The notes: a model not told the origin generated them from the letters alone. A stretch of DNA of 64,000 nt from Actinomycetes bacterium (GCA_024637095.1 JAGXFV010000018.1:1-64000), one strand, 5' to 3'. Counted from the first letter of the stretch, positions 2,790 to 64,000 are shown. Made by a program: numbers and translations.

Positions 2790-3038
2790 CGGGAACTCCT
2801 TTTGTCTTTTCGGTCGGGGCGGGCTTCCGTTGCGCCTAACACTAGATACCCGAGAACCCGGCCGCCCATTACAACCGGTTCGCTGAGCCTACCTCGGACC
2901 AAGGACTCATTCGCTTCCTATTCGAGCTTGGTTAGCCTGAAAGCCGGTTTGCAGCGATTGCCAATGGATGCCCCATCCTCAAGCAATGCAATGAGCGGCC
3001 GATAGATGGGGTGGAGTTTCGTCGAAGAAGGGGTGACG

Positions 3039-3800
3039 GTGGATCTGATCGAGGCCTACATGGCGATGGTTGCCCTCCTGGCCGGGATGGTCGTGGGGAG
3101 CTTTCTTAATGTCGTCATCTACCGGTTGCCGGCCGGAGAGTCCCTCGTCGCTCCAGGATCTCACTGTCCCGAGTGCGGCCATCCCGTGCGCTGGTATCAC
3201 AACGTGCCCGTGATGGGATGGCTCCTCCTGAGAGGCAGTTGCTACGACTGCGGAGCCAGAATTTCCATTCGCTATCCGTTCATAGAATCCCTGACCGGCG
3301 CCGGCTTCCTGGTCGCCTATTTGGTGTTCGGGGTCCAGCCCGAGCTGATTCTGGCCTGGGCTTTCCTCGCGGCGCTTATTGCGGTGGCCTTCATCGACCT
3401 CGATCACTTCATCATTCCCAACCGGATCGTTCTGCCGGGCGCAGTGATAGGGGTGATGGCCTCCCTGGCGCTGCATCCCGAAAGATGGTGGGAGTACCTC
3501 TTGGCCGGGCTCGGGGCGGCCGGCTTCTTGCTGATCATAGCGATGCTTTGGCCGGGAGGCATGGGCGCCGGCGATATCAAACTCGCTTTGATGATGGGCT
3601 TCGTGCTCGGCCGGGACGTGCTGGTCGCGATGTTCCTGTCCTTTCTAGTGGGGGGCCTGGTCGGCATTGCTCTCTTGACCCTAAAGCTCAAGGGCCGCAA
3701 GGACCGGATCCCCTTCGGGCCCTACTTGGCGCTGGGTGCGGCCACGGGGATTCTGGTCGGACGGCAACTGCTCGACTCATATCTTTCTTTGTACGGTTAA
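3039..3800 (+). CDS. pilD: Prepilin leader peptidase / N-methyltransferase (A24 family)
   Basis: Integral membrane aspartyl protease that cleaves and usually N-methylates type IV prepilins. Visible: GSFLNVVIYRLP at the N-terminus, two CxxC pairs (CPECGHPVRW and CYDCGARIS) of the zinc-binding cytoplasmic loop, the catalytic Asp in FIDLDHFIIPN and the second in GAGDIKLALMMG, and several hydrophobic segments. The track start is ATG 3006. GTG 3039 is preferred because GAAGAAGGGG precedes it and it gives the usual short N-terminus; GTG 3033 is also possible. It precedes the pilMNO genes and likely serves the same pilus system. Confidence 0.93.
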   Translation: MDLIEAYMAMVALLAGMVVGSFLNVVIYRLPAGESLVAPGSHCPECGHPVRWYHNVPVMGWLLLRGSCYDCGARISIRYPFIESLTGAGFLVAYLVFGVQPELILAWAFLAALIAVAFIDLDHFIIPNRIVLPGAVIGVMASLALHPERWWEYLLAGLGAAGFLLIIAMLWPGGMGAGDIKLALMMGFVLGRDVLVAMFLSFLVGGLVGIALLTLKLKGRKDRIPFGPYLALGAATGILVGRQLLDSYLSLYG

Positions 3801-3953: not shown

Positions 3954-5063
3954 ATGATGGGCCTCTTTGGACGTCAGAACATGATTGGACTCGACATTGG
4001 CAAGTCGAGCATTGTGGGCGTGGAGGTGAGCGGTAGCTTGCCTTCCGCAGTGCTTAGCGCTTACCACGAGCGTCACATTCCCGAGGGCTTGGTCTTCGAG
4101 GGCGAGGTGATCGATTCGGCTGCTCTGGGCAAAGAGCTCAAGGCGTTTATGAAGGATTCCCCGCTGAAAGGCAAATCGGTGCATCTCGGCGTCGGCAACC
4201 AGAAAGTGATCGTGCGCACGATCGAGGTCCCCGAGATGGACGAAGAGGAGTTGCGCGGGGCCATCCAATTCCAGGCACAGGATTACATCCCCATCCCTGT
4301 CGACGAAGCGGTCTTGGACTTCCAGGTGGTCCGACGCTATGCGGACGAGGAGGGAGTGGGAATGCAGCAGGTATTGCTGGTGGCGGCTCAGCGGGACATG
4401 ATCGACGGATTCATGGATGCGGCACGGGTGGCCGGACTCAAGGTAGACGGCATCGACGTCTCGGCCTTTGCGCTCATCCGGGCGCTGGCTCCGCAGGTGG
4501 CCTTCGTCGACCAGGGGTCGGAAGATCAGGGCGCCTACGCCATCGTGAACATCTCCTCTTCAGTGTCGAGCCTTGTGGTGGCGCTCGACGGAGTGCCCAA
4601 GTTCACGCGGATCATCGGCACGGCCTTCGATCAGTTCATCTCGGTCCTCACCGAGGGCCAGGCCATCCTCCCCGAGGACGCCTTGCTGCTGGCGGAGCGC
4701 ATCGGGCTGCCCGGGCCGCAGGAACCGGAAAGCGAGACTTACAACCCCGCGGTCATCCAAGAGGTGCAGGAGGGCCTGGCGCGGATGGCGGAAGAACTGG
4801 GAGACGAAATCCGCCGCTCCCTGGACTACTACCAGAGCCAGGACTACTCCGCGTTCGTCGAGAAGGTCGCAATCACCGGCCGCGGCGCGATGATCCGCAA
4901 TGTTGACTCATACCTCTCGGACTTCCTCAACATGTCCGTCGAGTTGGGAAACCCCCTCCTGAAGATTGCCAACAACGCGACCGGTGAGGCGGACGAAGAG
5001 CTCGCTGCCGTGGCGCCGCGACTCGCCGTCGCCGTTGGCCTAGCCCTAGACGAGGTGGAGTAG
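3954..5063 (+). CDS. pilM: Type IV pilus assembly protein PilM
   Basis: Cytoplasmic actin-like (FtsA-fold) ATP-binding protein of the pilus alignment complex. It binds the N-terminal tail of PilN and links the motor to PilN/PilO. The 369-aa length is typical. The phosphate-1 type motif IGLDIGKSSIVGVEV is at residues 11-25, and the IPEMD and QAQDYIPIP segments are characteristic of PilM. Two ATGs in tandem (3954, 3957) follow GGGTGAGG. First gene of a tight pilM-pilN-pilO-pilP-like run with overlapping or abutting ends, implying one transcript. Confidence 0.95.
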   Translation: MMGLFGRQNMIGLDIGKSSIVGVEVSGSLPSAVLSAYHERHIPEGLVFEGEVIDSAALGKELKAFMKDSPLKGKSVHLGVGNQKVIVRTIEVPEMDEEELRGAIQFQAQDYIPIPVDEAVLDFQVVRRYADEEGVGMQQVLLVAAQRDMIDGFMDAARVAGLKVDGIDVSAFALIRALAPQVAFVDQGSEDQGAYAIVNISSSVSSLVVALDGVPKFTRIIGTAFDQFISVLTEGQAILPEDALLLAERIGLPGPQEPESETYNPAVIQEVQEGLARMAEELGDEIRRSLDYYQSQDYSAFVEKVAITGRGAMIRNVDSYLSDFLNMSVELGNPLLKIANNATGEADEELAAVAPRLAVAVGLALDEVE

Positions 5064-5758
5064 TGGTTCGCCGAATAAACCTAGTACCGCCGAGCGAGCG
5101 GCAGCGTAAGAAGACCGACCTTGGGCTCGTGGGTATCGTCGCGGGAAGCCTGCTGGTGCTGGGCGCCATTGGGCTGAGCTACTTCTACTTCACGGGAGTT
5201 GCCGGAGACAAGGAAGCGGAACTCGCCGACCTGCAGATGCAGCGACAGCAGATCGAGGCAGAGATCGCCCTGCTGGCTGAGTACGAAGCCTTGCAACTCG
5301 AAGTCGTGCGGACGGAGCAACTCGTTCAGCAGGTGTATGCTGGGCGGACGCTGGTCAGCGAGGTGTTTGGGGATATGAGCCTGGTGGTTCCCGATAACGT
5401 CTGGCTCGACAGCCTTGCCCTGCAGGCACCGGAAATACCGCTGACCGTCGCGGCCGCTCCCCAGGACACGGCGGCTGATCCGGCGGCTCCGCCGACGGCT
5501 CCCACCGCGCCTCCGGTAGCCTGGGCCCCCGGCACCGTCACGATCGCCGGAAAGACTTTCGATTACGACGATGTCGCTACCATGCTGGTCAGGCTGCAAC
5601 AGATACCGTCTCTCAAGAACGTTAGCCTCGCTCAGGCAAACGCCGACGGCGAAGATGACGAAGGCCTCAAGACCTTTTCGATCACTGCAGAACTCGTGAA
5701 CAAAACCCAGCCGGCGGACAATCCGCTGCCTCTGACCGCGGTGGAGGTGAGTAACTGA
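5063..5758 (+). CDS. pilN: Type IV pilus assembly protein PilN
   Basis: Bitopic inner-membrane protein of the alignment complex. The short cytoplasmic tail RRINLVPPSER carries the conserved INLxP PilM-binding motif. One transmembrane helix follows (about 21-45), then a coiled-coil segment rich in Gln/Glu and a C-terminal ferredoxin-like domain. A Pro/Ala/Thr-rich linker of about 30 residues splits the extracytoplasmic part, which is longer than in proteobacterial PilN. The GTG start overlaps the pilM stop (TAGTG), indicating translational coupling. Confidence 0.92.
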   Translation: MVRRINLVPPSERQRKKTDLGLVGIVAGSLLVLGAIGLSYFYFTGVAGDKEAELADLQMQRQQIEAEIALLAEYEALQLEVVRTEQLVQQVYAGRTLVSEVFGDMSLVVPDNVWLDSLALQAPEIPLTVAAAPQDTAADPAAPPTAPTAPPVAWAPGTVTIAGKTFDYDDVATMLVRLQQIPSLKNVSLAQANADGEDDEGLKTFSITAELVNKTQPADNPLPLTAVEVSN

Positions 5759-6438
5759 TGACCCGCCGGAACACCTACATGCTGACCGGTATCGTGCTGC
5801 TCATCGTGGTCGTGCTCTATTGGTTCTTCGCGTTGAGCCCCCTGCGCGGGGAGATTTCTGAGACCGAGACTCAGATCGCCAGCGAGCAGCAGGCGCTGGA
5901 CGCGGCGCGTGCCAAACTCGTGCAGATGGAACAAACCAGGGTCGAGGCGAAGCGCAACAACGCGCGTCTCATCGAATTGGCCAAGATGGTCCCGGTGGAA
6001 AACGAGGTCCCGAGCCTCATCCTGCAGATTCAGGATCTCGCCGCCGAGTCCGGCATCGAGTTCATGAGCATCTCGCCCTCACCGCCCGACGGCACCGTGG
6101 CGGACGTCGGCCAGGTGGCTCTGCTGCTGTCGTTCAAGGGTGACTTCTTCGACGTCAATGACTTTCTGTACCGGGCGGAGCAGATGGCGTCCGGACCGGG
6201 CCGGCTCCTGGCCGGAACCAGCGTTAATCTGACGGCGTCTGGTGAGCCCCGCGTGGGCTCCTCCCCGGAACTGCAGGTCGAAATCGCGTTGGATGCCTAC
6301 CGTCGAGCCGCGCCGGTCGGCCTTCCCCCTGTGCTAATGACGCCTCCGCAGCCGATTCAAGCCAATAACGAGCAGCCGACGCCCGACGCTCCCGCCGATC
6401 TCGAGAGCGAACAAGCCTCTGCGGCGCAGGCGAACTGA
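5758..6438 (+). CDS. pilO: Type IV pilus assembly protein PilO
   Basis: Partner of PilN in the alignment complex. It has a very short cytoplasmic tail, one transmembrane helix (about 8-27), a coiled coil (about 35-70) and a C-terminal domain with the PilO-like pattern around FKGDFFDVNDFLYRAEQM. The last 40 residues are a Pro/Glu/Ala-rich tail. ATG overlaps the pilN stop (TGATG). Assignment rests on topology, order after PilN and the family pattern. Confidence 0.88.
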   Translation: MTRRNTYMLTGIVLLIVVVLYWFFALSPLRGEISETETQIASEQQALDAARAKLVQMEQTRVEAKRNNARLIELAKMVPVENEVPSLILQIQDLAAESGIEFMSISPSPPDGTVADVGQVALLLSFKGDFFDVNDFLYRAEQMASGPGRLLAGTSVNLTASGEPRVGSSPELQVEIALDAYRRAAPVGLPPVLMTPPQPIQANNEQPTPDAPADLESEQASAAQAN

Positions 6439-51021: not shown

Positions 51022-52743
51022 ATCCGGCGCACGGTCGTCATAGTCCTACTGAGCCTTGTTTTGGTCGCGGGCGGATTCGCCTTGGCCGCCGACTCCTATC
51101 ATCATCAGGGACGCGCCTACCGTGGCGTAGAACTGCAAGGGAGAGCGCTGGGGGGATTGACTGAAGAACAGGTGGCCCAGGAGCTGACCACGTTGGCCGC
51201 CGGTCTCCTCGCGGCACCTGTTGAAGTGCGGCACGAAGGCACCCTGGTGGAGCTGGTTCCTGACCAAGCCGGCATCGCCTTGGACAAGAAGGCCACGCTC
51301 GCAGCGGTCATGGAGGTCGGGCACGAGGCGGGATGGCTCGAGCGCGGCCGGCAGCGGTTGGCCGCATCCGTTGGGAGCGTTGCGATCGAGCCCGTATTCG
51401 TCGTCGACGAGCAAGGCTTCCAATTCGAGGTGGATCAGCTCGCGCTGGCCTTCGAAGAGCTTCCGAAGAATGCCCGCCTGCTCCTCACCGAGAAGGGTCC
51501 TCGAGCCGTAGCGGCGGAGGAAGGCCTCTCGCTCCGGCGTGACCTGCTGCAGCAAGCAGTGCTGGCGGCTCTGCGCACGAGTTCCGCAGAGGTCGAGGCC
51601 CCGCTGGAATCCGTCCCCCCGAAGGTGGGCACCGACGCGGCCCGCCGGGCGCTGGAAACGGCCAAGGTCGCCTTCAGCCGACCGCTAGTCCTGCGATACC
51701 AGGACCTCAACTTTGAGCTATCCGTCGAACAACTGACAAGAATGGCCGCCGTTCCGGAAACCGAGAGGGCCACTGCGTTGAGTTTCGACACAGACACCTC
51801 ACGGGAGTTGTTGGAGAAGCTCTTGGCCCCGATTCGGCACCCCGCCGTCGACGCCCGGCTGAAGCCGGTCCTGGGGGAGAAAAATCTGGAAGTGATCCCG
51901 AGTAAGAGCGGGGTGGAGATCGACTGGGATTCGCTCTTCCGGGACCTCGCTCGCCTGGCCGGGGATCCGAACGCGGCCTACGTCCCGGTGCCGACCCTCC
52001 GAGCCGAGCCCAAGGTCACCACCACGGACGCGCTGGCTCTGGGAATGCGGAGGGAGGTCTCCTCCTTCACCACCTACTTCAAGGCCGGTGATACCGCCCG
52101 CGGCAACAACATCCGACAGGTAGCGAAGCTGCTGGACGGGACCATCGTGCATCCGGGAGAGACCTTCTCTTTCAACGGCACGGTTGGTCCGCGCACCAAG
52201 GCAGCCGGTTTCGACGAGGCGCCGGTCATAGTGGGTGGCGTCTTAACGCCGGGGGTCGGAGGCGGGATCTGCCAAGTCTCGACCACCCTCTTCAATGCCG
52301 TCTTCTTCGCGGGGCTGCCCGTGGACGAGCGAAAGCCGCACTCCTTCTACATCGACCACTATCCGCTTGGCCGAGATGCCACGGTTTCGTACGGCACGGT
52401 GGACTTCAAATTCCGCAACGACTCCGACCGGCCCCTGCTGATCAGCGCGCAGGCGGGGGAGAATTCGGTAGAGATCACCCTGGCGGCCTCCAGTTGGGAG
52501 CGCACGGTGGAATACGAGGCCCAGTCCCCGGACCGATTGCGGGAACCCCGCACCACGTCTTCCAACCCCCGCCGGCTGCGTGACCCCAGCCTCGCACGGG
52601 GAGAGCAGGCGCTGGAGCAGGGAGTACCCGGACGCGAGGTGACAGTGACCCGCGTGGTCAAGGATCTGGAGGGTGAGGTTCTGCTCCGCGATGAATTCCC
52701 CAGCGTCTACGCGCCCAAGGATTACGTGCTGCGGATCGGCTAG
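51022..52743 (+). CDS. VanW family protein with peptidoglycan-binding repeats
   Basis: Membrane-anchored wall protein. N-terminal helix RRTVVIVLLSLVLVAGGFALA, two putative peptidoglycan-binding (PF12229-like) repeats (about 40-330), and a VanW domain with SSFTTYFKAGDTARGNNIRQ, HPGETFSFNGTVGPRT, GGGICQVSTTLFNAVFFAGL and HYPLGRDATVSYGTVDF. The first canonical start (TTG 51061) would cut the helix. A good GGAGG at 51011 sits 6 nt before ATC 51022, which restores the expected N-terminus, so a non-standard start (or an assembly error) is suspected. Converges with mglA, overlapping by 4 nt. Confidence 0.88.
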   Translation: MRRTVVIVLLSLVLVAGGFALAADSYHHQGRAYRGVELQGRALGGLTEEQVAQELTTLAAGLLAAPVEVRHEGTLVELVPDQAGIALDKKATLAAVMEVGHEAGWLERGRQRLAASVGSVAIEPVFVVDEQGFQFEVDQLALAFEELPKNARLLLTEKGPRAVAAEEGLSLRRDLLQQAVLAALRTSSAEVEAPLESVPPKVGTDAARRALETAKVAFSRPLVLRYQDLNFELSVEQLTRMAAVPETERATALSFDTDTSRELLEKLLAPIRHPAVDARLKPVLGEKNLEVIPSKSGVEIDWDSLFRDLARLAGDPNAAYVPVPTLRAEPKVTTTDALALGMRREVSSFTTYFKAGDTARGNNIRQVAKLLDGTIVHPGETFSFNGTVGPRTKAAGFDEAPVIVGGVLTPGVGGGICQVSTTLFNAVFFAGLPVDERKPHSFYIDHYPLGRDATVSYGTVDFKFRNDSDRPLLISAQAGENSVEITLAASSWERTVEYEAQSPDRLREPRTTSSNPRRLRDPSLARGEQALEQGVPGREVTVTRVVKDLEGEVLLRDEFPSVYAPKDYVLRIG

Positions 52744-53324
52744 TTCTGCGCGGTTTGAGCGATAACCTGCTTGCAGATCACCTTGAGGGTCTCGAACACG
52801 CCCTGTCCGGTGAGCGCACACGCTTCCATGCCCGGCGATTTCGTGTGGTTGAGTAACTCGTCCAGGTCTTCGACCGAGAACACCTCGGACAGGTCGCGCT
52901 TGTTGTACTGGATCATCATGGCCAGCTTCGAGAGATCCTCGCCCTGCTCCTGGAGGTTCTCCCAGAGGTTTAGGTAGCTCTCGACATTCTCGTCCAGACG
53001 GGTGATCTGGCTGTCGGCCACGAAGACCATGCCGTCGACGCCCTGCAGCACCAGTTTGCGGGATGCGTTGTAATAGGACTGACCCGGCACGGTGTAGAGG
53101 TGGAAGCGGGTCTTCATGCCCTTGACGGTGCCCAGGGACAGGGGGAGGAAGTCGAAGTAGAGGGTCCGTTCCTCCTCGGTGGCGATGGAAACCAGCTTAC
53201 CCCGGGCGCTGGGGTTCACCTTCTTGTGGATGTATTGGATGTTGGTGGTCTTGCCGCAAAGACCGCAGCCGTAATAGACGATCTTGTAGTTGATCTCCCT
53301 GGCCGCGAAATTGATTAAGGGCAA
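52740..53324 (-). CDS. mglA: Ras-like GTPase MglA
   Basis: Small GTPase that sets cell polarity and type IV pilus or gliding direction in Myxococcus and Thermus relatives. From TTG 53324 it has 194 aa, the family length, starting PLINFAAREINYKIVYYG. P-loop GCGLCGKTTN, FDFLPLSLG switch region, YTVPGQSYYNASRKLVLQGVDGMVFVADS, and NKRDL. Starts 4 nt after the mglB stop; GGAG upstream. The track start at 53372 lies inside mglB. Confidence 0.95.
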   Translation of the reverse strand: MPLINFAAREINYKIVYYGCGLCGKTTNIQYIHKKVNPSARGKLVSIATEEERTLYFDFLPLSLGTVKGMKTRFHLYTVPGQSYYNASRKLVLQGVDGMVFVADSQITRLDENVESYLNLWENLQEQGEDLSKLAMMIQYNKRDLSEVFSVEDLDELLNHTKSPGMEACALTGQGVFETLKVICKQVIAQTAQN

Positions 53325-53328
53325 CTGG

Positions 53329-53823
53329 TCACTCCACGTCGGCGAACAGATCGTCGATGGCCTCGCCCACAAGGAGCGAGTAGTCGTCGTCGATCGTCAG
53401 TGCGTCCTGTTGCTCGTCATCGGCGGAGTCGAGGATGGGCTTGAGGACCTCGACCGCTCGGTTCGTGTACAACCGCACTTTGCCCACCTGGGTCTCGCGG
53501 CCGAAGGTGATCACCAAGAGAACCTGGTCGGTTACCTGGGAAACGTGCAGGTTGGACTCACGCCCTTCGTGGAACAAGAGAGTGAACTCGCGCTCCTCGA
53601 GAACCGCTGCGAGCTGCTGCGTCGCGGCAAAAGAGCTGGCCGCAAGCGAAGCAAGAGAGAGGGTGTCAGGGTGATGCTCGGACTCAGAGGCGGTGATCGG
53701 CTGTCCGCTGGTGGAAACCAGGGCAATGAAGCGCGATCCGGAAACGTCCCTAAGCTTCTCCAGGATCTCGTCGACCACCTGCATCTGCCGGTCACTGATG
53801 ACCAGTCCCTTTCGCCGCGCCAA
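53329..53823 (-). CDS. mglB: Roadblock/LC7 protein MglB
   Basis: 164-aa Roadblock domain protein, the GTPase-activating partner of MglA. VVDEILEKLRDVSGSRFIALVSTSGQPI, LASLAASSFAATQQLAAVL, ESNLHVSQVTDQVLLVITFG fit the family. The acidic C-terminal tail (about 40 residues) is an extension. TTG start after GAGGAGGA; it precedes mglA on the same transcript. Confidence 0.9.
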   Translation of the reverse strand: MARRKGLVISDRQMQVVDEILEKLRDVSGSRFIALVSTSGQPITASESEHHPDTLSLASLAASSFAATQQLAAVLEEREFTLLFHEGRESNLHVSQVTDQVLLVITFGRETQVGKVRLYTNRAVEVLKPILDSADDEQQDALTIDDDYSLLVGEAIDDLFADVE

Positions 53824-53863
53824 CGATCCTCCTCGAGCCGAAGATGAGGCTTGATTCGATCGG

Positions 53864-53869
53864 AGTATA
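53864..53869 (-). promoter_or_regulatory. -10 box of mglBA
   Basis: TATACT on the minus strand, about 40 nt upstream of the mglB TTG, giving a leader of about 35 nt that contains the ribosome-binding site. It lies back-to-back with the DUF4388 promoter. Confidence 0.5.
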
Positions 53870-53905
53870 GCAGGGCGGTTTAGTCTTTTCTATGCGGTGG
53901 GACGT

Positions 53906-53914
53906 TGGTAGAAT
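53906..53914 (+). promoter_or_regulatory. Extended -10 box of DUF4388 gene
   Basis: TGGTAGAAT, an extended -10 of the TGn-TAGAAT type, 24 nt before the GTG start. Divergent from the mglBA promoter, so the two units may be co-controlled. Confidence 0.5.
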
Positions 53915-53938
53915 GCGGCCGCGGCAGGGTCGGCGAGG

Positions 53939-54268
53939 GTGAAAAAGAGGGCGTTGACAGGCGATCTCAGCGATTTTGGGTTGGGAGAAATCCTTCAGGT
54001 GCTGGCTCTTGGCCGGCGCAGCGGCCACCTATTGTTGGAGGGCGACCGTACCCGGGGCCGTTTGGTGATCGCGCAGGGCGAGTTGGTTCATGCCGAGGCG
54101 GATGGGGGGGACCCGGGGGAGCCGGCCTTCTTCGTTCTCATGGAGAATGGGGCCGGGGCTTTCTGTTTCCTTTCTGCAGAGCAGGAGGAGGTGACGGTCT
54201 CAGAGGTCACCATTCAACGCAAGCTGGACAGCTTGCTGGTTCAGGCCACTATGCAGTACGGACAGTAG
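53939..54268 (+). CDS. DUF4388 (PATAN-type) domain protein
   Basis: 109 aa made almost wholly of a DUF4388 domain: LTGDLSDFGLGEILQVLALGRRSGHLLLEGDRTRGRLVIAQGELVHAEADG. Such domains are common in response regulators and polarity/motility proteins, where they act as protein-interaction modules. No receiver domain is present. Divergent from mglBA, so a link to the Mgl switch is inferred. GTG start; weak ribosome-binding site. Confidence 0.85.
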   Translation: MKKRALTGDLSDFGLGEILQVLALGRRSGHLLLEGDRTRGRLVIAQGELVHAEADGGDPGEPAFFVLMENGAGAFCFLSAEQEEVTVSEVTIQRKLDSLLVQATMQYGQ

Positions 54269-54327: not shown

Positions 54328-54714
54328 GTGAATCCCAAGAACCTGAAGTACCACAAGGAGCACGACTGGGCACGTATCGAGGGTGAGACTGCGGTATTCG
54401 GTGTCACCGACTATGCTCAGGAGCAGCTCGGGGACATCGTCTATGTGGAGCTTCCCGAGGAAGGTACCGAGGTGACGGCGGGGAGTTCCTTCGCCGAGAT
54501 AGAGTCGGTCAAGGCGGTTTCCGATGTCATTGCCCCGCTTAGCGGGACCATCGTGGAGATCAATGAGGAAGTGGTCGACGCGCCGGAGACCATAAATGAG
54601 AGCCCCTACGAAAACGGTTGGCTGGTGAAGGTCAAGGTCAGCGAGCCGGGCGAAGCGGACGATCTGATGAGCTCTGACGAATACGAGGGGATGCTCGCCC
54701 AAGAAGAGGAGTAG
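54328..54714 (+). CDS. gcvH: Glycine cleavage system H protein
   Basis: Lipoyl-carrier protein, 128 aa from GTG 54328 (AAGGAG at 6 nt; the track start is 7 codons earlier). Lipoylation Lys in AEIESVKAVSDVIAPLSG; also HDWARIEG, YAQEQLGDIVYVELPEEG and ENGWLVKVKV. No gcvT or gcvP nearby; in actinobacteria gcvH commonly sits alone beside garA. A short acidic tail follows. Confidence 0.96.
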   Translation: MNPKNLKYHKEHDWARIEGETAVFGVTDYAQEQLGDIVYVELPEEGTEVTAGSSFAEIESVKAVSDVIAPLSGTIVEINEEVVDAPETINESPYENGWLVKVKVSEPGEADDLMSSDEYEGMLAQEEE

Positions 54715-54780: not shown

Positions 54781-54833
54781 TAGGTTATCGAGCTGAACCT
54801 CGACCTCGACTTTAAGGTTTGGACAAGAGGAGC

Positions 54834-54839
54834 TATACT
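54834..54839 (+). promoter_or_regulatory. -10 box of RsiG-like gene, probably leaderless
   Basis: TATACT ends 6 nt before ATG 54846, the same spacing as the CCA-transferase fusion gene. No Shine-Dalgarno between them. Preceded by the gcvH terminator, so this opens a new transcription unit. Confidence 0.65.
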
Positions 54840-54845
54840 AGAGCC

Positions 54846-55133
54846 ATGGACGCGCAAGGCCACACAGACTTCGACCTTCTGGTAAACATTCAGTCCTACG
54901 GCGACGAAGAGTTGAAGCAGCTCTCCGAATCCCTCGAGAAAGACGAGAGGGAGATCTCGAAGCGGCGAAGGCTTATCCATGGGCAGCTCGACATTCTGCG
55001 CGCGGAGATGGTGCGCCGGCTTCGGGACAAGCACCGTTCGGGCGAGCCGCTTTTTGGGGAAGGCGACGTCGATCGCTTGAGTTCGATCCTCAGCTCTCCG
55101 AAACGCGATCCTGCGGACGGCTCGTCGGAGTAG
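54846..55133 (+). CDS. RsiG-like small helical protein (possible c-di-GMP-binding anti-sigma factor)
   Basis: 95-aa, highly charged, helical protein from ATG 54846 (the track TTG 54819 precedes the promoter box). The segment REISKRRRLIHGQLDILRAE strongly resembles actinobacterial RsiG (formerly AmfC-like). RsiG binds c-di-GMP through E(x3)S(x2)R(x3)Q(x3)D and holds sigma WhiG. Here the spacing is exact, E-x3-S-x2-R-x3-H-x3-D, with His at the Gln position. Only one copy is present, so a homodimer would be needed. Family and motif are seen; anti-sigma function is inferred. Confidence 0.7.
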   Translation: MDAQGHTDFDLLVNIQSYGDEELKQLSESLEKDEREISKRRRLIHGQLDILRAEMVRRLRDKHRSGEPLFGEGDVDRLSSILSSPKRDPADGSSE

Positions 55134-55175: not shown

Positions 55176-55430
55176 GTGGGGGACCTGATAGAACGGATGA
55201 TCAGGGCCATCCATCAGCTCTTTGAGGAATTTGGGGTACACGTCCGGGAGGATCGGGTCCTCCGCTATGTGGCCGGCGAGCTCGACAAGGGCCGTCGGTT
55301 CGATGAGATTCTCGCCGATCCCTATGTGGTGAACAATACCGACGAGCAGGGCCGCAACCGCCTCCTCGAAAAGCCGGAGACCCTGCGCGCGGTGGAAGAG
55401 CAGCTGCTCTCGATGCGGCGCCGTCCTTAG
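55176..55430 (+). CDS. Hypothetical 84-aa protein
   Basis: GTG start with GGGAGGA at 5 nt. Mostly helical and charged (LIERMIRAIHQLFEEFGVHVRED, LRYVAGELDKGRRFDEILADPYV). No transmembrane segment or recognisable domain. It follows the RsiG-like gene by 42 nt and precedes the FHA gene, so it is probably co-transcribed with both. Not recognised; function unknown. Confidence 0.7.
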   Translation: MGDLIERMIRAIHQLFEEFGVHVREDRVLRYVAGELDKGRRFDEILADPYVVNNTDEQGRNRLLEKPETLRAVEEQLLSMRRRP

Positions 55431-55458
55431 GCTCTTCGGACACTATTCAGGAGGCCGG

Positions 55459-55923
55459 ATGCGCAACTGTCCCAAGTGTGGCTTCGTCAACAACGACGAG
55501 GCGAACTTCTGCCAGCAGTGCGGAAGCCGCCTGGTAGAGAAGGACCTCTCCGAGACCACGATCACGTACGCTCCCGGCCTCGACGAGGAAGCAGACGAAT
55601 CCACGGCGGCCGAAGCGGTTCACGCCTCACCCGTTCTGGTGATTCGCTCAGGCGGCGGCAGAGAGGGGGAGAAGGCCGTACTCGATACCGAGTTGTTGAC
55701 CATCGGCCGCGATCCCGAGAATCACCTGTTCCTGGACGACGTGACGGTGTCACGGCACCACGCGAGAGTGATCCGCGACGCAGTGGGTTACGTGATCGAG
55801 GACCTCAACAGCCTAAATGGCACCTACGTCAACCGCAAGCGGTTAGAGAGACACCACCTGAGCGACGGTGATGAGTTGCAGATAGGCAAGTTCAAGCTCG
55901 GATTCCTCGAACCGGTGGAGTAG
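55459..55923 (+). CDS. Zinc-ribbon FHA protein, GarA/OdhI-like
   Basis: 154 aa. N-terminal zinc ribbon CPKCG...CQQCG (4-22), then SETTITYAPG, which resembles the ETT phosphorylation motif of GarA/OdhI, an acidic linker, and an FHA domain (LLTIGRDPENHLFLDDVTVSRHHARV, EDLNSLNGTYVNRKRL). In mycobacteria phospho-switching of GarA controls 2-oxoglutarate dehydrogenase and glutamate metabolism. Gene order gcvH-[x]-FHA-MerR matches. The zinc ribbon is an addition to the short GarA form. AGGAGG-type site before ATG. Confidence 0.88.
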   Translation: MRNCPKCGFVNNDEANFCQQCGSRLVEKDLSETTITYAPGLDEEADESTAAEAVHASPVLVIRSGGGREGEKAVLDTELLTIGRDPENHLFLDDVTVSRHHARVIRDAVGYVIEDLNSLNGTYVNRKRLERHHLSDGDELQIGKFKLGFLEPVE

Positions 55924-55926
55924 GGG

Positions 55927-56676
55927 GTGCCCCGCGACTCTGACTCCGGCTCCATTGGGTCTTCGGTGGGCAAGGACCGGAAGGTTCCGGCTGATGACCA
56001 CTACACGATCGGTCGCCTGGTTGGCCTCCTTCAGGAGGAATTCCCGGATCTCAGCATCAGCAAGGTTCGCTATCTGGAAGACCGCCGGCTGATCCAGCCC
56101 GAGCGCACCGAGGGTGGATACCGTCGCTACGGCGGCTCTGACTTGCGCCGGCTACGGACCATCCTGCGCCTGCAAAGGGACGAGTACCTACCCCTCGAGG
56201 TGATCAAAGCGCGGCTGGAGCGGGGAACCGCAGCCACCACGTCGCGTCCACTGGGACCGACCCAGGATTCACGCGAACTCGGCGTCCTGCGGCAGCCCGC
56301 CGAGAGCTTCTCCTGGCATGAGGTCAAAGAGGCGACTGGCGCTGACGACGTCTTCCTTGCACAACTCGCCGATTTCAAATTGATCGCTGCCTCGCCTCGG
56401 ACGTTGGGGGGCGGTCTCCCCGAAACGGACGTCGAGGTCATCCGCATCTGCCAGATTCTGGCGCGTTTTGGGGTGGAGCCTCGGAACCTCCGTCTGCTCA
56501 AATCGTCTGCGGAGCGCGAAGCCGCCTTGCTCGAGCAGGCAGTCACGACCGCATTGCGCTCGCACCACGAGGAGCGCCGCGCGCAAGGTGAGAGGAATCT
56601 GCAGGAGCTCGCCGTCTTGGTCTCTCGCCTGGTCGAACTTCTTCTGTACAAGGAACTGCGGAGGTTGATCGAGTAG
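55927..56676 (+). CDS. MerR family regulator, FtsR/Rv1828-like
   Basis: 249 aa, GTG start 3 nt after the FHA gene. N-terminal winged helix-turn-helix HYTIGRLVGLLQEEFPDLSISKVRYLEDRRLIQPERTEGGYRRYG, a middle segment and a C-terminal helical domain (RNLQELAVLVSRLVELLLYKELRRLIE). The partner of garA in actinobacteria is Rv1828/FtsR, a MerR-type regulator implicated in ftsZ expression; the same position here supports orthology. No cysteines for metal sensing are apparent. Confidence 0.87.
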   Translation: MPRDSDSGSIGSSVGKDRKVPADDHYTIGRLVGLLQEEFPDLSISKVRYLEDRRLIQPERTEGGYRRYGGSDLRRLRTILRLQRDEYLPLEVIKARLERGTAATTSRPLGPTQDSRELGVLRQPAESFSWHEVKEATGADDVFLAQLADFKLIAASPRTLGGGLPETDVEVIRICQILARFGVEPRNLRLLKSSAEREAALLEQAVTTALRSHHEERRAQGERNLQELAVLVSRLVELLLYKELRRLIE

Positions 56677-56775
56677 CGCCCGCCCCGCCTGCTCGCCGAA
56701 CACTCGCAAATCCACGATCAATCAATTCAGCGCCCCAAGGTTTGAGGCGCCGGGAGCATCAACCAGGAGGCACGG

Positions 56776-57306
56776 ATGGACGCCGCGGACGCCTTGGACT
56801 TAAAAAAGTACATTCGGGACATCCCCGACTTTCCCAAAGAAGGGATTCTCTTCCGGGACATCATGCCCCTGCTGCAGGACCCGGTGGCTCTGCGCTACAC
56901 GGTCGACCGGTTGATCGAGTTCGGCACCGCGAAGAAGGTCGACGTGGTTTTGGGGGCAGAGGCGCGAGGTTTCATCCTGGGGGCGGCCCTGGCCTACGGA
57001 CTGGGGGCGGGATTCGTGCCCGCGCGTAAGCCGGGGAAACTCCCGTGGAACGTGGCCCGGGCGGAGTACGAGCTGGAATACGGCACCGACGTGCTGGAGA
57101 TGCACACGGATGCCATAAGGCCCGGGCAGCGGGTAATAATCCATGACGACCTGCTGGCCACCGGGGGCACCGCCAAGGCAAAGGTGGAGTTGGTGGAGCA
57201 GGCCGGGGGGACCGTGGTGGGGCTCGTTTTCGTCGTCGAGTTGGAATTTCTCAAAGGGCGAGACCGGCTTCACGGCTACGACGTGCTCAGTCTGATCCGC
57301 TACTAG
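56776..57306 (+). CDS. apt: Adenine phosphoribosyltransferase
   Basis: Salvages adenine to AMP with PRPP. 176 aa: [55 protein letters not shown], and the PRPP motif [19 protein letters not shown] after AGGAGG. Single gene in its own 100-nt spacer context; together with the DeoB-PNP fusion it indicates active purine salvage. Confidence 0.96.
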
Positions 57307-61307: not shown

Positions 61308-62180
61308 CTAGAAGATCTTTTTCGTGAGGATGGCTTTCAGGCGGTCGAGGGCGCGGGTCTGCTCTCGGGATACAGTCCGTTGGGACATCCCCAACTCGTC
61401 TGCGGCCTCTTGCTGGGTCAACCCTTTGAAGAAGAGGAGATAGAGCAATTTCTTGTGAGCCTCCGAGAGTGCTCCCAGAGCGTCGTAGAGCAAAATCCGG
61501 TCCTCGATGGGTAGATTGAAGTTCTCCGGGCGTAGCGCTTTGATCGCGCCCCGGTCCAGCCCATTGGGCACCTCCGCGCCATTATCCTCAAGGGAATGGA
61601 CGTCTATGGAACCGTAGAAGCGGATCAGCTCCAGAATCCCCTCTTCCTGAACATTGACGGCGTCCGCCAACTCCGACATCGTGGGCGAGCGTCCCTGGTC
61701 GCGCAGAAAATCGCCCTGCACCTGTTGGATACGGTCGTACAGGGACTTCGCCCAGCGAGGCTGCCTGACCAACATGTTGTCTCGGAGGTAGTGCCTTACC
61801 TCGCCCTCGACCAGAGGGAAGGCATAAGTGGAAAAGGCGGTTCCCCGCGTGCCGTCGAACCGCTGCGCCGCCTTCAGCAGACCCATTCGGGCGACCTGGA
61901 ACAGATCTTCGTAGGGTTCCTCGGAGCGGGCGAAGCGTTTGAGGACGTAGTGGCAGATCCGTTCGTTCCGGCACAGGAGAACTTCCAGGCACTGCATCCA
62001 ACCGTGATCCTGATATGCACGGGCCAGCTGCTCGTTGGTGAGGTTCTCGAGGGCTGTCGTGTCCGTCGGATCGATGGCGACTTCGAGACGGGTCCGCCTT
62101 GGCTTGAGCACCGCCCGCTTCGCAAGAACCCCCTCAACCGGCGGCAGAGCACGCACGACCGTGTTTGGCAGTGTCGACAA
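61308..62180 (-). CDS. RNA polymerase sigma factor, SigB/SigF/WhiG-like group
   Basis: Sigma-70 family group 3 protein. Region 2 LFQVARMGLLKAAQRFDGTRGTAFSTYAFPLVEGEVRHYLRD, region 3 RIQQVQGDFLRDQGRSPTMSELADAVNV, and region 4 LLYLLFFKGLTQQEAADELGMSQRTVSREQTRALDRLKAIL are complete. The track start at 62234 overlaps pilC; TTG 62180, 7 nt after the pilC stop, gives 290 aa and coupled translation. Encoded within a pilT-pilC-sigma-deacetylase run, so it may govern pilus or envelope genes. Whether it belongs to the WhiG or SigB/F branch is not resolved. Confidence 0.88.
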   Translation of the reverse strand: MSTLPNTVVRALPPVEGVLAKRAVLKPRRTRLEVAIDPTDTTALENLTNEQLARAYQDHGWMQCLEVLLCRNERICHYVLKRFARSEEPYEDLFQVARMGLLKAAQRFDGTRGTAFSTYAFPLVEGEVRHYLRDNMLVRQPRWAKSLYDRIQQVQGDFLRDQGRSPTMSELADAVNVQEEGILELIRFYGSIDVHSLEDNGAEVPNGLDRGAIKALRPENFNLPIEDRILLYDALGALSEAHKKLLYLLFFKGLTQQEAADELGMSQRTVSREQTRALDRLKAILTKKIF

Positions 62181-62187
62181 CTGGGCT

Positions 62188-63402
62188 CTACTCAACGAGC
62201 TGGAAGAGGTTGAAGATAGGCAGGTACATCGCAACCACGATCAGGCCCACCAGGCCGCCAATAAGGATCATCATGATCGGTTCTATGATCGAGGTGAGCG
62301 ACTTGACCGAGGAATCCACCTCATCCTCGTAGAAGTCGGCGATCTTGTGCAGCATCGTGTCCAATGCGCCGGTTTCCTCACCGATGGCGATCATCTGGGT
62401 CACCATCGGGGGAAACACCTTGACTCGTTCCAGCGGGCGCGCGATCGACTCCCCGCCCTTGACGTTCTCCTTGACCTCTTCCATGGCGTGTTCGACCACC
62501 CGGTTGCCCGAGGTTTTGCCCGTAATGTCAATCGCCTGCAGGATGGGGACACCTGAGGAGACCAGAGTGGCAAGCGTGCGGCTAAACCGCGCAACCACGA
62601 TCTTCTGAATGATGGGACCAAGCTTCATGGGAAGCTTCAGCTTGATGCGGTCCCACACATTGGTGCCTCTGTCGGAATTCTTGAGCTTCTTCAAGCCATA
62701 AGTGGCCAGGAAGAGCGCGGGGAAGATCACGAACCAGAATGATCGGGTGAAGTTGCTGGCTCCCACCATTATCCGGGTGAGCAGCGGGAGTTGACCGCCC
62801 AGGTCATTGTACATCTCGGCGAAGATCGGGATCACGAAGAGGATCAGGCCGAGCATGACCATCACGGCAAAGACGCCGATAAGGATCGGGTAAGTCATGG
62901 CGGACTTGATCGAGCGGCGCAGGCTGTCATCCTTCTCCAGCTGAGTCGCCAGACGCTCCAGCGTTTGATCGAGCACCCCACCGATCTCGCCGGCACGCAC
63001 CATGCTGACGTACAGGCGATCGAAGGCGACCGGATGGCGCTCGACCGAATCCGAGAGGGGCATGCCCGCCTCGACGTCCTGTCGGACGGCGGCGATGACC
63101 TTACGGAAGCGCTTGTTCTCGGTTTGCTCCTCGAGGATATAGAGCGCCCGCAGCAACGCTAGTCCGGCATTGATCATAGTGGCGAACTGGCGCGAGAACA
63201 CAACCTTGTCGCGCAGCTTGATCTTCGTCATGTTCTCGAGGAGCTCGTTGATGTCCGGGAGCCCCTTCTTCTCGTCGATAGAGAGAACGGTCAACCCTCG
63301 GCGGCGAAGCTCAGCGGAAACCGCCGCTTTGGAGACCCCTTCTATCTGGCCAATGCTCTGTCCGCCCCTCACAGGCCTGGCGGTATAAGTAAAGGTGCTC
63401 AC
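62188..63402 (-). CDS. pilC: Type IV pilus inner-membrane platform protein PilC
   Basis: 404 aa with two GspF/PilC domains: N-terminal FTYTARPVRGGQ, VVFSRQFATMINAGLALLRAL, DVEAGMPLSDSVERHP, MVRAGEIGGVLDQTLERLA; second copy FSRTLATLVSSGVPILQAIDITGKTSGN and MIAIGEETGALDTMLHKIADFYEDEV. Three or four transmembrane helices. The platform couples the PilB/PilT motors to pilus growth. GTG start with AGGAGGG; 16 nt after pilT. Confidence 0.96.
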   Translation of the reverse strand: MSTFTYTARPVRGGQSIGQIEGVSKAAVSAELRRRGLTVLSIDEKKGLPDINELLENMTKIKLRDKVVFSRQFATMINAGLALLRALYILEEQTENKRFRKVIAAVRQDVEAGMPLSDSVERHPVAFDRLYVSMVRAGEIGGVLDQTLERLATQLEKDDSLRRSIKSAMTYPILIGVFAVMVMLGLILFVIPIFAEMYNDLGGQLPLLTRIMVGASNFTRSFWFVIFPALFLATYGLKKLKNSDRGTNVWDRIKLKLPMKLGPIIQKIVVARFSRTLATLVSSGVPILQAIDITGKTSGNRVVEHAMEEVKENVKGGESIARPLERVKVFPPMVTQMIAIGEETGALDTMLHKIADFYEDEVDSSVKSLTSIIEPIMMILIGGLVGLIVVAMYLPIFNLFQLVE

Positions 63403-63418: not shown

Positions 63419-64000
63419 CTAAGCGGCGCCGGACATCAAGAGCCGGCCTAGATCTTCGGGATTAGAGCTTCGCTGGTCCGCCATCTCCCGACTGATCAGA
63501 TTGCGGCGAACCAGATCCGCCAGTGCGTAATCCATGGTCTGCATGCCGTACTTGGTCCCGGTTTGCATCACGGTGTAGATCTGATGAGTCTTGCCTTCGC
63601 GGATCAGGTTCCGCACAGCGGGAGTGGGCATCAGGATCTCGCAGGCGACGATCCGCCCCCGTCCATCCCGGCGCGGGAGCAGCTGCTGGGTGACGATGCC
63701 CTGAATGGTCGACGCGATCTGCACACGGATCTGCTCCTGCTGATGCGGCGGGAAGACGTCGATCATGCGGTCGATCGTCTGCGGCGCATCCTGGGTGTGC
63801 AGGGTGGCAAACACCAGGTGGCCCGTCTCGGCGGCGGTGAGGGCGGTCTGGATGGTCTCGAGATCTCTCAGCTCGCCGATGAGGATCACGTCGGGATCCT
63901 GCCTGAGCACCGACTTGAGTGCTCGGGCGAAGGACTGAGTGTCCGCCCCGACTTCGCGCTGATTGATCACGCAGCCCTTGTGGGCGTGAAGGAACTCGAT
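63419..64000 (-). CDS. pilT: Twitching motility ATPase PilT (5' end outside window)
   Basis: C-terminal part of the retraction ATPase; the frame is open to the window edge ([10 protein letters not shown] precedes the GTG listed in the track). ASP box [29 protein letters not shown], the His-box [17 protein letters not shown], and [21 protein letters not shown] near the end are diagnostic. The Walker A motif lies beyond the window. Drives pilus retraction; upstream genes probably include pilB. Confidence 0.95.

Follow-up and report, generated by a model that had tools for sequence, protein, structure and literature searches.

Group 1 MglA/MglB beside a PATAN/DUF4388 gene in a Thermoleophilia genome, and a parallel GTPase module in the pilus operons of other actinobacterial classes

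The stretch of Actinomycetes bacterium DNA considered here (GCA_024637095.1 JAGXFV010000018.1:1-64000, whose 64,000 nucleotides are called the window below) carries a small Ras-like GTPase gene, mglA, preceded by a roadblock gene, mglB, and, divergent from these, a gene for a stand-alone PATAN (DUF4388) protein. Judging from its sequence motifs, the pair is a Group 1 MglA/MglB pair, of the Myxococcus/Thermus type, and it rather probably constitutes a switch setting the site of type IV pilus motor activity (PilB/PilT/PilC), with the PATAN protein as an adaptor to the motor. To our knowledge, the control of type IV pilus polarity by Ras-like switches is understood in detail for few lineages only, chiefly Myxococcus and Thermus. 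Both of these have outer membranes.

The assignment relies on the five MglA groups defined by Wuichet and Sogaard-Andersen, in which Group 1 is recognized by an arginine next to the threonine of the G2 motif and by TVPGQ in G3, whereas Groups 2-5 have a threonine in place of this arginine, and GTPGQ (PMC4316618). The window MglA has EEERT in G2 (residues 50-54), with the arginine beside the conserved threonine, and TVPGQ in G3 (residues 78-82). The arginine is shared by all 39 relatives tabulated from the same class, Thermoleophilia, and the exact TVPGQ by all but one. Its length of 194 amino acids (aa) and the position of mglB directly upstream agree with the size and linkage of Group 1 (150-240 aa, mglB within four genes). 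It aligns with Myxococcus xanthus MglA without gaps over residues 1-190 (E=1.4e-74), and Thermus thermophilus MglA is also matched (E=2.5e-66). The window MglB scores 42 bits against the Pfam Roadblock/LC7 family (cut-off 23) and matches a solved MglB in the PDB (E=7.6e-17), and the tail at its C-terminus (IDDLFADVE) lines up with the corresponding tail of M. xanthus MglB.

The window pair differs from that of M. xanthus by belonging to an actinobacterial class, by its PATAN and rsiG neighbors, and by a P-loop cysteine where M. xanthus has proline. This P-loop (residues 19-26) reads GCGLCGKT in nearly all sequences of families f1 and f3 (families bear the labels of the search output, f1 being that of the window, and f2, f3, f6, etc., further ones; G000 is the window genome, C plus a number a contig, and L plus a number a fetched locus). 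With T. thermophilus, the window shares the GTPase group and the pair, and the Thermus function is pilus-linked, since deletion of mglA/mglB alters pilus placement (PMC12024867); however, the window MglB reaches only 83 bits against the NCBIfam equivalog of Thermus MglB, far under its cut-off of 200. The 2014/15 survey listed Groups 2 and 5 in Actinobacteria, but not Group 1 (PMC4316618). Streptomyces conservons (CvnA-D) are another actinobacterial case of a small GTPase combined with a roadblock protein (PMC4316618), but the Group 2 GTPase motifs (GTPGQ, threonine for the G2 arginine) and the CvnA/CvnC neighbors are absent at the window locus. A conservon was therefore rejected, given TVPGQ, the arginine, and the VanW, PATAN, gcvH, and rsiG genes nearby.

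The preliminary description of this DNA had placed a complete mglA/mglB pair and a divergent single-domain DUF4388 gene at 52740-54268, which domain matches and substitution rates confirm. Arf/Ras, Robl_LC7, and DUF4388 all score above their cut-offs in the domain search of the window, and the ratios of non-synonymous to synonymous substitution (dN/dS; NG86, window genes versus a same-genus genome) are about 0.03 for mglA, 0.07 for mglB, and 0.33 for the PATAN gene; all three are therefore coding and constrained, the PATAN gene least. GAGGAGG precedes the TTG start of mglB, and that of mglA comes just after the mglB stop. The stops of mglA and of the convergent VanW-like gene overlap at CTAG, and 115 bp separate mglB from the PATAN gene (Table 1). 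The pilM, N, O, C, T, and D genes of the preliminary description are all present and could be located in the window, with pilB immediately beyond it. Rfam searches of the window and of the f6 loci returned rRNA and tRNA only.

Table 1. Features of the window discussed in the text.
Feature	Position	Strand	Evidence
mglA, Group 1 (Myxococcus/Thermus-type) Ras-like GTPase, 194 aa, TTG start	52740-53324	-	alignment, motifs, dN/dS
mglB, Roadblock/LC7 protein, putative GTPase-activating protein (GAP), 164 aa, TTG start	53329-53823	-	Pfam, PDB match, dN/dS
mglBA promoter-like element, TAGAAA-N17-TATACT	53864-53892	-	conservation in relatives
Stand-alone insertion-less PATAN/DUF4388 protein, 109 aa, divergent from mglB	53939-54268	+	Pfam, alignment, model, dN/dS
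gcvH, glycine cleavage H protein, housekeeping; at this place in f1 only	54328-54714	+	domain search
rsiG, predicted single-motif c-di-GMP-responsive anti-sigma homologue	54819-55133	+	domain, motif E...S..R...H...D
Conserved downstream set: 84-aa protein, zinc-ribbon/FHA protein, MerR regulator, apt-like phosphoribosyltransferase	55176-57306	+	domain search
VanW-like protein, convergent with mglA, conserved neighbor in f1 and f3	51061-52743	+	domain search
SigB/F/G-type sigma factor beside pilC (not WhiG)	61308-62234	-	NCBIfam
pilC, type IV pilus platform protein	62188-63402	-	
pilT, retraction ATPase, runs beyond the window end, pilB next	63419-64000	-	
pilD, prepilin peptidase	3006-3800	+	
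pilM	3954-5063	+	
pilN	5063-5758	+	
pilO	5758-6438	+	

Two samples were used to follow these genes, one of 149 Thermoleophilia genomes and one of 297 genomes of the phylum; the MglA/DUF4388 overlap and the proximities of rsiG and of the GTPase module described further below were tallied by hand from genome listings. In the class, MglA occurs in 48 genomes (f1 17, f3 14, f6 17) and DUF4388 in 49. Both are found in 47 genomes, DUF4388 only in two, MglA only in one, and neither in 99. PilT-family proteins score above cut-off in 109 of the 149; pili are therefore widespread without MglAB. In the phylum sample, convincing Group 1 MglA is found in this class only, and DUF4388 in 86 genomes. MglAB is thus not widespread among non-piliated relatives free of any DUF4388 link: 47 of the 48 MglA genomes encode DUF4388, and nearly all encode PilT.

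The preliminary description was right in calling the genome actinobacterial. The nearest named loci belong to Thermoleophilia metagenome-assembled genomes (MAGs), UBA2241 and RBG_16_64_13 among them, and to the relative BMS3Abin01, followed by Acidobacteriota at 58-61%. The window genome is itself a draft, and its closest named relatives are MAGs. Contamination was rejected because the same neighborhood recurs in about 40 separate draft genomes. In the MglA tree, all class sequences form one fully supported clade, in which f3 and f6 each constitute one group and f1 is paraphyletic; the Thermoleophilia sequences stand apart from those of Acidobacteriota and M. xanthus, again with full support. 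The branching within the class is what vertical inheritance there would produce. No donor phylum is claimed, because few phyla were sampled and the MglA homologue scan was seeded with lineage-biased queries, so that other phyla may have been missed.

The PATAN protein scores 52.4 bits against PF14332 (cut-off 25). It and all its mglB-adjacent relatives lack the alpha-helical insertion that figures in the title of Makarova 2006, with the rest of the domain present. The other aligned PATANs carry this insertion, except one receiver-PATAN protein. The f3 proteins encoded next to mglB have an extra C-terminal region, mostly ending in PQPELER. The AlphaFold2 model of the window protein is confident (predicted local distance difference test score 90.2), and a Foldseek search of it against the PDB returned nothing significant (best E 0.07). 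The PATAN gene adjoins mglB in 13 of the 14 MglA-positive f3 genomes, five of the 17 in f1, and none of the 17 in f6. The linkage is thus real but patchy and is overstated in the preliminary description; an adjacent DUF4388 gene, missing in most of f1 and all of f6, is therefore not obligatory.

Further PATAN proteins are encoded elsewhere in these genomes. The insertion-less receiver-PATAN response regulator (L143:4585-5550, G006:C1) lies about 23 kb from mglA on the same contig, and PF14332 matches are similarly placed in G004 and G013. A PATAN protein of about 230 aa whose C-terminal part holds a conserved set of cysteines (CxxC..C..C) is found in f1, f3, and f6 (loci L176-L180; in G000, contig C49:33431-34114, L134:9431-10114:-); its f1 and f6 genes have argS and a channel gene nearby.

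In the proposed mechanism, MglA-GTP would mark a pole or other site, MglB, as a roadblock GAP, would return MglA to its GDP form, and the insertion-less PATAN protein would couple the MglA switch to PilB/PilC. The last step is drawn by analogy with Synechocystis, where PilB1 and PilC are interaction partners of PATAN regulators (PMC12288463). The response regulators concerned (PixG, PixE) share with the window protein the PATAN domain and a proposed role as pilus-motor adaptor, whereas the window protein is a lone PATAN, with neither receiver domain nor helical insertion. SgmX mediates the action of MglA on PilB in M. xanthus, and its STRING co-occurrers include PATAN proteins, a point not taken further in that paper (PMC11580455). 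In f1, pilB-pilT-pilC follows the mglBA neighborhood, with pilT at most about 11 kb from mglA in 13 of 17 genomes. We infer GAP activity, polar localization, binding of the PATAN protein to MglA or PilB, and an effect on motility, as well as the polarized twitching suggested for the window organism in the preliminary description.

Several observations weigh against a pilus-motor switch with a PATAN adaptor. All MglA-positive genomes belong to three families, so that the co-occurrence with DUF4388 is confounded by clade. PilT is also encoded by many members of the class that lack MglAB. No pilBTC genes are found within the 10 kb covered at the f3 and f6 loci, and the adjacent PATAN gene is missing from 12 of 17 f1 and 17 of 17 f6 MglA genomes.

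This last point feeds the idea that MglAB does control type IV pili, while the PATAN gene next to mglB is a bystander that happens to share the divergent promoter region, and that the unlinked form of about 230 aa is the one that matters. That form is present in every MglA family and is the sole DUF4388 protein in f6, and the adjacent PATAN is the fastest-evolving of the three genes. Nevertheless, the adjacent genes of 13 f3 and five f1 genomes are all of the insertion-less form, a uniformity that favors a single old linkage over chance. A bystander is considered rather unlikely.

Alternatively, instead of polarized twitching, MglAB could serve another envelope process (cell-wall growth, adhesion, DNA uptake, or secretion). 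In f1 and f3, a VanW/peptidoglycan-binding gene faces mglA in convergent orientation, and PilT without MglAB in many relatives would fit such a role. No secretin was detected in the window genome, a draft, and the pili of this lineage may accordingly differ in use. These arguments are countered by the nearness of pilBTC in f1, by the Group 1 relatives studied to date, which act on motility or pili (PMC4316618), and by the location of a parallel GTPase module of other classes within the pil operon. Another envelope process appears improbable.

The most constant neighbor of mglBA, absent from the preliminary description, is rsiG. Over the approximately 40 named loci whose neighborhoods were compared, mglBA is divergent from [PATAN][gcvH]-rsiG-[84 aa]-FHA-MerR-apt, the bracketed genes being variable (gcvH is restricted to f1, and the 84-aa gene was undetected in f3). 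In 46 of the 48 MglA genomes, no more than about 3 kb separate rsiG from mglA, and in the other two the genes are on different contigs. As the pilus genes of Rubrobacter have been proposed to be under RsiG-WhiG control (PMC8325347) and WhiG is present in the window genome (NF004935, 361 bits, cut-off 343; G000:C38:29701-30456), this adjacency suggests a connection with cyclic di-guanosine monophosphate (c-di-GMP). The sigma gene beside pilC was tried as WhiG and rejected, as NCBIfam places it in SigB/F/G and WhiG scores above cut-off on another contig.

The connection could go further, with mglBA in the RsiG-WhiG regulon, the module being mainly a c-di-GMP output, and the closeness of rsiG reflecting a functional link. 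The MshEN domain found in PilB of the window genome points in the same direction. However, no conserved WhiG promoter was found before mglB. A FliA/WhiG-type candidate upstream of it (TAAA-N14-tCCGATcg) was rejected, this lone element being absent from a same-genus genome that keeps the housekeeping-like TATACT box. Upstream of mglB, no match to the WhiG consensus with two mismatches or fewer occurs, and the whole window holds 21 matches versus 14.3 expected. In addition, the rsiG-FHA-MerR order is retained in class members without mglBA, so that the closeness may be incidental. The motif of single-motif RsiG is E(X)3S(X)2R(X)3Q(X)3D (PMC8325347), and the one copy in the window RsiG has histidine instead of glutamine at the fourth residue, as is common in these families. 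A module working mainly as a c-di-GMP output is given a low probability.

The TATACT -10 box itself is conserved before mglB in f1 and most f3 relatives. Of the back-to-back promoters in the preliminary description, the one for mglB is supported by this conservation, and none was demonstrated for the PATAN gene. The f6 loci L050-L064 have a recurring motif upstream of mglB, like TGCCGATAAGC...ATT, which resembles a FliA/WhiG -10, and Rfam returned nothing for this f6 region. Only single-motif RsiG has been found in Thermoleophilia (PMC8325347). Two RsiG-like motifs occur within one open frame in some class members (L188:9307-10062 in G126, L190:7074-7616 in G134, also G129, G140, G020, G088, and G030), and these frames may, from their sequence, be twin-motif or intermediate forms.

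Other actinobacterial classes have a recurrent trio, in which a small GTPase of approximately 180 aa with GTPGQ and a threonine in G2 is accompanied by a roadblock and a PATAN protein. This GTPase, called at 170 bits or more, is found in 45 genomes of the phylum sample, with a PF14332 match within about 5 kb in 37 of them. Of the 36 loci fetched, 33 have pilB on the same stretch, the other three being contigs under 10 kb. Most trio loci share one chromosomal location, as judged from aroE and alaS, and the trio lies within an alaS-aroE-pilB-pilT-pilC region at L136-L138, L141, L142, and L145-L175. The window genome keeps this order, as alaS-ruvX-mltG-aroE-pilB-pilT-pilC, but here pilB comes directly after aroE and the slot is empty (alaS, ruvX, mltG, and aroE being identified from sequence, without domain search). 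The trio resembles the window genes in its three protein kinds and its tie to pilBTC; it differs in its GTPGQ GTPase with threonine in G2, in PATAN proteins with the insertion and mostly long C-terminal regions, and in the location of its genes inside the pil operon.

None of the 149 Thermoleophilia genomes has a genuine match to the trio GTPase, and the weak matches of f1 and f3 map to the C-terminal portion of a PATAN protein. A profile of 17 regions of this kind, compared with one of 36 trio GTPases, gave 98.9% probability over 167 columns (E=1.6e-17, single template only). In this domain, GPIDxYN replaces the GPFxxGKT P-loop of the trio, leaving a GTPase-like domain without the P-loop lysine. 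The 420-aa PATAN-GTPase-remnant protein is found in six f1 and 11 f3 genomes (loci L192-L207; in G000, contig C4:25174-26436, L133:9174-10436:-). Group 1 MglAB and the trio GTPase module have complementary distributions, and the trio GTPase looks as if it were in the same role as MglA. A tentative scenario, which we hold to be possible and somewhat doubtful, is that of an ancestral actinobacterial roadblock/PATAN/GTPase module in the pilBTC operon, whose GTPase was lost as an enzyme in Thermoleophilia, where Group 1 MglAB beside rsiG, often with an insertion-less PATAN, took over the spatial control of pili.

The proximity of PATAN to MglB/MglA had already been noted (Makarova 2006; PMC4316618), and MglAB control of pili is known. 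According to the literature searched, which covers few subscription papers, Group 1 MglAB in an actinobacterial class with its near-constant rsiG neighbor, the pil-operon trio of other classes, and the fusion of PATAN with a P-loop-less GTPase domain are provisionally new. They place a Myxococcus-type switch in an actinobacterial lineage without detected secretin, and a parallel GTPase/roadblock/PATAN module in the pilus operons of other classes. If the proposed role is true, small-GTPase control of pili would be more general than described, and PATAN as a link between GTPase and pilus motor would become testable.

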